Source: Amaricoccus sp. | Lineage (GTDB): Bacteria; Pseudomonadota; Alphaproteobacteria; Rhodobacterales; Rhodobacteraceae | Length of the DNA stretch: 33,797 nt | Reading direction: 5' to 3' | Assembly: GCF_017993425.1 (NCBI RefSeq) | Contig: NZ_JAGOMQ010000040.1 | Span: forward strand, 1-33,797 | Shown here: one piece after another, positions 2,145 through 15,298 of the stretch | Numbering within the stretch: position 1 is the stretch's first letter | Layout: every line of letters begins with the position of its first letter | Program-made: the position numbers and the translations under genes | The notes under the pieces: model-generated | The model's database searches: none | What the model saw: only the letters and a program-made list of their open reading frames with translations | Told to the model about the DNA's origin: nothing

Positions 2145-2148
2145 GGGA

Positions 2149-2161
2149 GTCGTGTAGTGTG
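2149..2161 (+). repeat. Right terminal inverted repeat of the IS4-like element
   Basis: GTCGTGTAGTGTG follows the interrupted transposase tail, and its internal TAG is the reconstructed transposase stop. It differs by one base from GTCGTGCAGTGTG, the terminal repeat of the short element copies at 2482-2494 and 15126-15138. It also pairs with the facing repeat at 2170-2182, so 2149-2182 forms a 15-bp-arm hairpin with a TCCG loop. Confidence 0.6.
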
Positions 2162-2169
2162 GGTCCGCC

Positions 2170-2494
2170 CACACTACACGACAGGAGCCGGTGGCCGCCC
2201 GAGGCTGCGGCGCTCGCCCCGACCGAAGCGGGCTCTGCCCGCGAGGCTGCGGCGCGACAAGCGAAAGCACGGCTTTCGCCGCGCCGACGGCCGGAGCGCA
2301 TTGGCGCGGAGGCCGTGGGGGGTCCAGATTTCCACGCACCGCGCCATCCGTCCGTGATCGCCCCGGCGAGCGCGGAATCGCGCTCGCCCCCCGCAGGGGC
2401 GATCGCGGACGGATTTGCCACGGGTCAAATCCGTCTGGCGTCGGCGTCGCGGCCAGCCTCGGGCCGGGCTTCCTCTCCACTGTCGTGCAGTGTG
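2170..2494 (-). mobile_element. MITE-like hairpin element, copy A
   Basis: A 325-bp non-coding element with 13-bp terminal repeats, CACACTACACGAC at 2170-2182 and GTCGTGCAGTGTG at 2482-2494 (one mismatch). Its interior is the reverse complement of copy C (14828-15138). Shared landmarks include the GACGGATTTGACCCGTGG block (here on the minus strand), the GGCGAGCGCG/CGCGCTCGCC hairpin, the GCGAAAGC/GCTTTCGC hairpin and the GCGGGC/GCCCGC hairpin. No flanking duplication is visible here (GGGTCCGCC on one side, GAACGAGGG on the other). This may be because the IS4-like element abuts it only 8 bp away. No credible protein is encoded. Confidence 0.8.
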
Positions 2495-2527: not shown

Positions 2528-2561
2528 GAAATCAATGACTTAGCGAATATTCACGCGTGAA
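2528..2561 (-). promoter_or_regulatory. Composite palindromic motif downstream of lhgO (site 1)
   Basis: On the minus strand this reads TTCACGCGTGAA (a perfect 12-bp palindrome), six bases, CTAAGT, CAT, then TGATTTC. It begins 24 bp past the lhgO stop. The arrangement recurs with identical internal spacing at 14761-14794 and 6040-6070. It may be a protein-binding site or a processing/termination signal; its function is unknown. Confidence 0.5.
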
Positions 2562-2584
2562 CACCCGCGCGGGATCGCCCCCGG

Positions 2585-7553: not shown

Positions 7554-7664
7554 GGGCACCTCCCGGCCGGGCGGAGCGAGTCGCCCGCCGCCCGGGCGAT
7601 GCTAGCCCATCCCCGGCCGGCCCGTCGCCCCCCGCCTGCCCGTCAGCCTCGGCCGGATCAGGAA

Positions 7665-7956
7665 CCAGGCCCGGCCGGAAGCAGGTGCGACGGTGACGCC
7701 AGACGGATTTGACCCGTGGCAAATCCGTCCGCGATCGCCCCTCGGGGGGCGAGCGCGAAGCCGCGCTCGCCGGGGCGATCACGGACGGATTGCGCGCTCC
7801 CGCAGAAATCGGCGCCCCTCACGGCCTCCGCGCCAACGCGCTCCAGCCGTCGGCGCGGCGAAAGCCGGGCTTTCGCTTGTCGCGCCGTGGCCTCGCGGGC
7901 AAGCCCGCTTCGGTCGCTCTGGCCCCGTGGATCCAGCAGGCAGGCGTCGTGCAGTG
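7665..7956 (+). mobile_element. MITE-like hairpin element, copy B (left-truncated)
   Basis: The segment aligns with copy C from about its GCCCGGCC block to the right terminal repeat. GACGGATTTGACCCGTGG is followed by the same nested hairpins. The GGCGAGCGCG/CGCGCTCGCC stem has loop AAGC instead of ATTC, and the AAAGC/GCTTT stem has loop CGG instead of CAT. The right end is GTCGTGCAGTG (7946-7956), with its last two bases changed. No left terminal repeat or target duplication is found, so this looks like an older, decayed copy. It fills the spacer between the aldehyde dehydrogenase start and the flgD end. The left boundary is approximate. Confidence 0.7.
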
Positions 7957-7994
7957 CTCCTTTGCGCGCCGCCCCCGGGAGCCTGGCGGCAGGG

Positions 7995-14735: not shown

Positions 14736-14760
14736 GGGCGGCGGGCGCGATCGCGTGGTG

Positions 14761-14794
14761 TTCACGCGTGAAAATTATCCAAGTCATTGATTTC
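14761..14794 (+). promoter_or_regulatory. Composite palindromic motif downstream of livG (site 3)
   Basis: TTCACGCGTGAA, six bases, CCAAGT, CAT, TGATTTC, beginning 25 bp past the livG stop. It is the same in orientation and spacing as 2528-2561 (minus strand). The distance from its first base to the first base of the following MITE is 67 nt at both loci. Confidence 0.5.
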
Positions 14795-14818
14795 ATTGAA
14801 CCCGGATTCGCGCGACAA

Positions 14819-14827
14819 CGGCGTCAC
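14819..14827. repeat. Target-site duplication, left copy (MITE C)
   Basis: CGGCGTCAC abuts the left terminal repeat of copy C and is identical to 15139-15147. Confidence 0.8.
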
Positions 14828-15138
14828 CACACTGCACGACGGTGAAGCCGGAGCCCGGCCAGAACCAGGTCGCGACGCCGACGCCAGACGGATTTGACCC
14901 GTGGCAAATCCGTCCGCGATCGCCCCTGCGGGGGGCGAGCGCGATTCCGCGCTCGCCGGGGCGCTCACGGACGGATTGCGCGCTCCCGGAGAAATCTGCG
15001 CCCCTGACGGCCTCCCCGCGCAACCGCGCTCCAGCCGTCGGCGCGGCGAAAGCCATGCTTTCGCTTGTCGCGCCGGGCCTCGCGGGCAAGCCCGCTTCGG
15101 TCGCTCGGGGCCCCGTGGATCCGGCGTCGTGCAGTGTG
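14828..15138 (+). mobile_element. MITE-like hairpin element, copy C (intact)
   Basis: A 311-bp element with perfect 13-bp terminal inverted repeats, CACACTGCACGAC (14828-14840) and GTCGTGCAGTGTG (15126-15138), flanked by an exact 9-bp direct repeat. Inside, several hairpins follow one another: GGATTTG/CAAATCC, a long nested stem from TCCGTCCGCGA to its partner near 14969 with the inner stem GGCGAGCGCG/CGCGCTCGCC, the stem GCGAAAGC/GCTTTCGC, and GCGGGC/GCCCGC. There is no credible ORF. It has the anatomy of a miniature inverted-repeat transposable element. Its terminal repeats match the end of the IS4-like element at 2149-2161. Confidence 0.85.
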
Positions 15139-15147
15139 CGGCGTCAC
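15139..15147. repeat. Target-site duplication, right copy (MITE C)
   Basis: CGGCGTCAC abuts the right terminal repeat of copy C and is identical to 14819-14827. The remaining spacer to the gntP stop at 15299 shows nothing else I can name. Confidence 0.8.
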
Positions 15148-15298
15148 ACACGACAACGGCGGCAAGGGTCCACGGGCGGCGCCGTTTCGCCATGAGCGCG
15201 CGCGACCGGGCGCCGCAAGGCGAGACGCCGCCGCTGGTCCTCCTCCGCGAGCCCCGCCCGCCGCCCCCGTCGCGAGGCGGATGCGGGCGGGACCGGCT

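Follow-up and report, generated by a model that had tools for sequence, protein, structure and literature searches.

The window analysed here, a stretch of 33,797 nucleotides that makes up contig C65 of a 4.24-Mb Amaricoccus assembly, harbours three copies of a short repeated element, designated A, B and C. Copy C is 311 bp long and lies on the forward strand at 14828–15138, exactly where the first-pass annotation had placed it, and the 9-bp duplication CGGCGTCAC reported on both of its sides is present without a mismatch at 14819–14827 and 15139–15147. Its terminal inverted repeats, of a type termed T1, are perfect as had been claimed, but extend over 14 rather than 13 bp, the left arm at 14828–14841 (forward) and the right arm at 15125–15138 (reverse) being 100% complementary across that length. 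Upstream, a dyad-and-tag motif (GTGTTCACGCGTGAA...CATTGATTT) occupies 14758–14794 on the forward strand, its start being 70 bp from the element. At 15148–15288 on the same strand lies a probable degenerate second MITE of T1 type (T1b, CACGAC..GGCGGCAAGGGTC), whose likeness was judged by eye and whose extent was taken from the end of the alignment gap with the closest relative used, G003.

Copy A, on the opposite strand at 2170–2494, has both T1 ends and no matching duplication, since its flanks agree at only 2 of 9 positions in register and at 5 of 9 at best. A dyad-and-tag motif is found 70 bp from it (2528–2564, reverse strand), and a remnant at 2147–2161 (reverse strand) resembles the right end of a related IS4-family IS (CACACTACACGACTC). 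The minus strand of the window also contains an IS1595-family transposase gene (PF12762, PF12760) at 1130–2104, and by eye this IS1595-family element appears to have inserted beside the IS4-type right-end remnant next to copy A. A swap of flanks between copy A and another copy (L016) by simple recombination was considered and rejected, as their common flank GGCGGAC adjoins IS ends; an IS situated between two MITEs would fit this flank better than recombination, short of proof. Copy B (7664–7957, forward strand, limits by eye) is truncated, retaining its interior and a partial right end while the left end is missing. The assertion that A and B have their interior in common with copy C held, as all three are matched by the repeat model described below, with domains at 2345–2435 (reverse strand, 61.7 bits), 7702–7791 (forward strand, 64.3 bits) and 14887–14977 (forward strand, 63.7 bits; the 5' domain of the structured repeat).

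That three copies in one contig imply many in the genome was borne out: a 28-bp hairpin from the core gave 151 matches genome-wide at up to 2 mismatches, against none for a reversed-pattern control. Within the stretches fetched, 137 occurrences at up to 3 mismatches collapsed to 112 distinct copies; a BLAST search scored 40 of 387 candidates. Eighty-two of the 112 copies have both ends of type T1 (CACACTGCACGACAG, each end with at most 5 mismatches out of 15), 8 are bounded on both sides by ends of another type, T2 (CTACGGCATTCACAC...GTGTGAATTCGCTAG), and the remaining 22 either run into a contig end or are truncated or bare. A 9-bp duplication at 8 of 9 identical positions or better flanks 59 of the 82 two-ended T1 copies and 7 of the 8 T2 copies, while mismatched left and right pairs reached this level in only 26 of 6642 combinations. 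T1 copies measure 291–374 bp (median 325) and T2 copies 343–345 bp, and T2 insertions lie in GC-rich targets such as CCCTGCGGG and CCTGGCGGG. With terminal inverted repeats, a target-site duplication, a short length and a high copy number, the designation of a MITE-like element stands, but it had missed the link to an IS4-family element, the shared structured interior and the spacing rule described below. The element and its core were not found in the literature searched, which consisted of open-licence papers, and an exact core hairpin search of genome contigs, in which the genome under study may not have been included, gave no match.

Several arrangements of the copies deserve mention. One T2 copy lies within the loop of a core copy as a nested insertion (L084), and at L092 the GC-rich loop of a further core copy is directly adjoined by a T2-like right end. 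Head-to-tail T1 pairs occur at five loci (L009, L034, L088, L096 and L024), several of them with an identical 9-bp unit, as if insertion had recurred at one spot. The right part of some T1 copies (L027, L049, L021) consists of GGTC/GGTCGCTC tandem runs of varying number. About 10 bp preceding the core hairpin are variable in many of the 112 copies (GCCGACGCCA, GGTGACGCCA, GGCGCCGCCA, GGGGACGACA, by eye), and some of these variants recur in both T1 and T2 elements, as if swapped among copies.

It had also been claimed that each copy sits at a gene end or between genes. This is largely so, 86 of the 102 copies tested being located between two called genes, but 6 lie inside a called gene. Among the 86 intergenic copies, 40 have convergent, 3 divergent and 43 tandem neighbours, all of these counts relying on gene calls from a GC3 heuristic.

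The T1 and T2 elements differ at their ends and share their interior. In a profile alignment of core and arms built from 14 of 76 T1, 9 T2 and 5 A. macauensis copies, the two types are 81–99% identical in 25-bp bins across reference positions 76–275, corresponding to 14887–15086 on the forward strand of the window. Identity in the three bins to the left is 37%, 51% and 68% (the first lying partly outside the element) and falls to 59% and then 39% in the two bins to the right. The A. macauensis core copies that were printed had no T1 or T2 ends by eye, and some core copies in the present genome lack them also. A degenerate pattern, demanding only the first hairpin and CCGCG, matched at least 83 stretches in named genomes. 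Among the matches listed, the genera were Rhodobacter, Pseudorhodobacter, Paracoccus, Defluviimonas, Cypionkella, Fuscovulum, Phaeovulum, Amaricoccus, Thioclava (apparently the hairpin alone, by eye) and unclassified relatives, and 54 of the 83 also had the third arm. A T1- or T2-like end was present near the core in a single one of 69 testable loci, the range covered being about 110 bp on the upstream side and 420 bp on the downstream side. Removal of near-identical loci left 34, from which the model R1 was built with the window excluded; it recovered the three window copies at 61.7–64.3 bits (E 2e-12 to 6e-12) and matched at least 17 of 149 Rhodobacterales genomes, the genome under study included, with 29 candidates per genome scored. 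In seven loci of other Rhodobacterales (L137, L144, L145, L195, L198, L199, L201) the loop of this hairpin is occupied by another hairpin module, ACCCGGCC...CACCCC, which by eye resembles a further nested repeat family. Rfam 15 gave no match at the gathering score on the whole window, none up to E=1 on 14800–15160, and on 7 related loci only an unrelated serC leader.

The structure of the core was assessed in an alignment of 35 sequences (A1), the window included. A two-hairpin fold has 97.8% of its cells paired and 54 double-changed cells, against 15.9 in shuffles, and an alternative long stem has 93.3% paired and 33 double-changed cells, against 7.8. The two are mutually exclusive, using the same middle arm, and sliding the structure by 1–3 columns lowered pairing to 29–42%. 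Further pair types showed no excess over shuffles (137/500 for the two-hairpin fold, 179/500 for the long stem). As GATTTG, CAAATC and CCGCG are fixed by the search pattern, only the free columns are informative on covariation, among them columns 2–4 with 25–27 and column 11 with 18. The first, middle and third arms do covary as a trio, a behaviour that suits either a two-state RNA or DNA hairpins in which template switching maintains the match. The core of about 200 bp is thus a structured, covarying repeat that occurs across several Rhodobacterales genera and that in this genome is borne by both T1 and T2 ends. Covariation across genera could indicate that the core is itself a functional unit, a structured RNA or DNA at gene 3' ends maintained by selection, to which the T1 and T2 ends are incidental. 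The setting of the core elsewhere in the order, where the 65 loci with both neighbours called by the GC3 heuristic comprise 29 convergent, 5 divergent and 31 tandem ones, and the copies devoid of T1 or T2 ends speak in the same direction, but high copy number and variation from species to species fit a mobile repeat equally well. We regard such a function as possible, at a tentative level, and it is compatible with the explanation preferred below.

The T1 ends match, at the level of sequence, the end of a putative IS4-family IS of the same genome. The left end of this IS, CACACTACACGACACAG..., was found five times. Four of the occurrences open contigs (C8, C19, C22 and C23) and are readable for 126–127 bp; the fifth closes contig C101, where 311 bp can be read. 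That four contigs begin with exactly 126–127 bp of an IS end is consistent with a collapse of the assembly at IS copies. The five CACACTACACGAC left ends carry the start of a transposase gene, the readable part of the IS in the assembly being incomplete. The 78 residues that can be read from this gene align over 75 aa, at 64% identity, with an IS4-family transposase encoded by plasmid pORIO4 of Cereibacter azotoformans. That protein reaches 179.9 bits against NF033591, where the cut-off is 152, and matches PF01609; the 78-aa piece alone reached only E=0.066 against NF033591 and matched no Pfam family. A PDB search with the Cereibacter transposase returned nothing. Paired ends with exact 9-bp duplications were found in 2 of 5 related IS loci tested, the Cereibacter IS of 1183 bp (L324) and one of 1168 bp (L328, in G060), whereas at the three others (L325, L326, L327) no paired ends were found and each has a T1-like left end. 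Members of the IS4Sa subgroup have been described with duplications of 8–10 bp, lengths of 1150–1750 bp and ends of the form CA------T (PMC2266710). The 9-bp duplication, close to one helix turn as in the IS4 family, and the lengths of the two relatives fall within these ranges (the IS of the genome under study being readable in part), and the initial CA is present, but position 9 is an A instead of a T. The IS and the MITE have only about the terminal 15 bp in common by eye. The interior was also considered as a decayed IS, and this was rejected: it fits the Rhodobacterales repeat model, and the IS of this genome, over its readable 311 bp, matches it by eye only at the end.

A further regularity lies outside the elements. 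The motif upstream of copy C belongs to a 37-bp class (class i) that consists of the dyad TTCACGCGTGAA and the tag AATTnnCTAAGnCATTGATTT, and it is found 66–71 bp from an end in 44 of the 82 T1 copies, facing the left end in 24 and the right end in 20; at all other distances within about 400 bp of T1 copies there were only 7 matches. Across 66 motif places, 11 of the 12 dyad positions are invariant and the last is conserved in 65 of 66, a conservation partly by construction, as places were chosen with at most 1 mismatch and at least 13 of 22 tag matches. The spacer of about 30 bp between tag and insertion holds little information. Another dyad, of the CACGCGTG, GCACGCGC or CCACAGTGG type, is centred 56–66 bp away in 13 of the 38 T1 copies without a class-i motif, against 0–2 in each of eight control windows, although these other classes were defined post hoc, on flanks already inspected. 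A sequence-blind palindrome score showed only a slight excess, with 6 or more pairs in 7 of 80 flanks and 21 of 480 control windows. No recognised dyad at this spacing was seen in 25 of the 82 T1 copies, some of which are tandem copies. Three T1 copies (L005, L012, L037) lie by eye in another repeated site (GGATTCCAGCC / GGGAAAAACCCGGGCTGGAA) that is unlike the dyad sites.

Could this association be a by-product of survival? An ordinary MITE with random targets, preserved chiefly in convergent intergenic regions, would account for copies being mostly intergenic and often convergent (40 of 86, with 6 inside a gene call), and the 25 T1 copies without a recognised dyad are in line with it. Survival cannot, on the other hand, yield a motif at 66–71 bp in more than half of the T1 copies against 7 matches elsewhere within about 400 bp. 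Random insertion is rejected by this fixed spacing, and we hold the survival account as a whole to be very improbable.

The motif is confined to this genome as far as it was searched. A 32-mer of it (up to 2 mismatches) had 114 places here and none in 10 other genomes of the genus, and a 34-mer (up to 3 mismatches) was absent from all 99 of the other family genomes searched. In 244 Rhodobacterales genomes the class iii motif together with its tag was found at 2 places, both in the present one; hits of the dyad motif in plasmids had E values of 2 or worse, and its letters were not found in the literature searched. As a short extragenic palindrome, species-specific and present in about 100 copies or more, it resembles a REP. 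The tag of REP sequences is GTAG or CGTC; neither serves as the tag here, which is AATTnnCTAAGnCATTGATTT. Of 61 motif sites, 34 are preceded by a called gene that reads towards them and ends no more than 100 bp away.

Alternatively, dyad and tag could constitute a transcription-factor site or promoter, with the transposase following a bound protein or an open promoter. The TTGATT of the tag resembles the -35 consensus, and a GTTATAATATAAC-like motif lies near 11 of the 112 copies. The orientation of neighbouring genes argues against it, the same 61 sites being 28 convergent, 23 tandem and only 2 divergent by heuristic gene calls, and so does the variation of the dyad arms between classes (TTCACGCGTGAA, CTAACACGCGTGTTAG, GTATCACGCGTGATAC, GTCCCACAGTGGGAC). 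We find this alternative quite unlikely.

The same spacing is seen with ends other than those of the MITE. At C8 and C19 the IS left ends are situated 69 and 68 bp away from the motif, while at other motif sites a second T1 MITE family takes, by eye, the identical position. The IS left ends at C22 and C101 had no motif at this spacing on the visible side, the one at C23 adjoins a MITE, and inspection of the IS copies in L324 and G080 by eye revealed no clear dyad so spaced. Among 14 class-i motif places without a core copy in the loci examined, about half have another T1-like end and about half are apparently empty, again by eye.

Comparison with the relative G003, in which both flanks were found at three occupied loci, gave a less simple picture of the target. 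The locus of copy C spans 542 bp here and 19 in G003, L094 spans 496 and 43, and L015 spans 400 and 7. At the copy C and L094 loci G003 is without both element and motif, and at L015, which has no class-i motif, it is without the element and about 60 bp beside it. The first-pass annotation had predicted a single CGGCGTCAC at the orthologous site of a genome without copy C; the element is indeed absent from G003, but the single CGGCGTCAC was not seen, as about 542 bp including the motif are absent there. In seven further pairs the left flank alone aligned, stopping 12–47 bp short of the motif or dyad. L253, an unoccupied motif site, aligns with G003 without a break; G003 has the tag CCAAACCATTGATCTC there but not the dyad sequence. 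The motif was thus at least partly gained in this lineage. Across 506,650 bases of G003 the tag AAGCCATTGATTT, with up to 2 mismatches allowed, was found at 3 places, in at least two of which other dyads precede it by eye.

Among the results, the joint absence of motif and element weighs most against the simple targeting of an old site, and it keeps alive the view that dyad motif, spacer and MITE move as one composite unit whose internal structure is the constant spacing. The absence of both from G003 at the two class-i loci with two flanks (copy C and L094) is what such a unit would leave. Its coherence is called into question by the nearly uninformative spacer, by the MITE facing the motif with either end, by the IS ends and, by eye, the second MITE family at the same place, and by motif sites apparently empty of T1 elements (by eye). 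The 9-bp duplication, moreover, is found at the MITE ends and hence inside the supposed unit. We consider joint movement unlikely.

The explanation that we judge probable is that of a MITE with a passenger, mobilised by an IS4-family transposase which gauges its distance from REP-like palindromes. Copy C would be a non-autonomous element whose ends of about 15 bp are recognised by the transposase of the IS4-family IS in the same genome, which would join them to the target with a 9-bp stagger. Its interior would be a passenger, the multi-hairpin intergenic repeat known from several Rhodobacterales genera, enclosed here by T1 ends and, separately, by T2 ends; we infer that the two forms arose by capture and not by loss of ends. 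The T1 transposase, presumably the protein that moves the MITE, would, by itself or helped by a host factor, often select its target by measuring some 61 bp from the dyad centre, the dyad then being its recognition signal. As the dyad tends to follow the stop codon of a gene, copies could land in harmless places and stack at the same spots. Our confidence was lowered slightly because no more than 2 of the 5 IS ends conform to the spacing. A more specific version, which we offer as a conjecture with the balance against it, is that a transposase encoded by a single gene reads the gene-end dyad as a structure rather than a set sequence, the arms varying between classes, and inserts one measured distance away, and that the MITEs thereby spread an older two-state repeat. 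If this version is true, the genome would harbour a three-layer stack of parasites, consisting of the REP-like dyad, the IS4-type IS with its MITE, and the enclosed Rhodobacterales repeat. Fixed-distance targeting from gene-end palindromes by an IS4-family transposase would represent a simple safe-site system and a test of how distance along DNA is measured, and the core under two types of ends would indicate that sequence not derived from an IS can become a MITE passenger more than once.

Elements of this scheme have precedents. In the mobile insertion cassettes of IS231 (MIC231), IS4-family ends flank DNA other than a transposase gene, as they would here. The passenger in the present case differs in being a structured non-coding repeat of about 200 bp that is also found outside such ends in other genera. 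Tn7 is a large transposon with several proteins and a 5-bp duplication whose insertions keep a constant distance from a sequence that it recognises at the end of a gene (attTn7), a likeness in targeting, whereas the elements described here have 9-bp duplications and a related IS with a single transposase gene. Chunjie and QMITE2, as described in a review (PMC10969869), resemble the T1 and T2 elements in being short, with inverted ends, a target duplication, many copies and intergenic or 3' locations; here there are two sets of ends on one core and a motif at fixed spacing in about half of the copies. The CIR repeats of Caulobacter and Brucella, of about 110 bp with a conserved GANTC (as described in PMC2229807), are likewise alphaproteobacterial intergenic repeats with two stem-loop arms. 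GATTC occurs in a loop of copy C but is missing from most A1 rows. Closest to the targeting proposed is ISRm22, an IS4-family element also tied to repeated extragenic palindromes, which is reported to integrate within the REP, on its axis, with repeats of 6 bp, while type 2 IS (ISPsy7, ISRm5, ISNm1106) lie near REPs without breaking them, with no fixed distance stated in the part of that paper available (Tobes and Pareja 2006, PMC1525189). The insertions in this genome are by contrast outside the dyad, about 61 bp from its centre, by either end and with 9-bp duplications. A link between IS and extragenic palindromes is thus already known, and the fixed spacing outside the dyad is the surprise.
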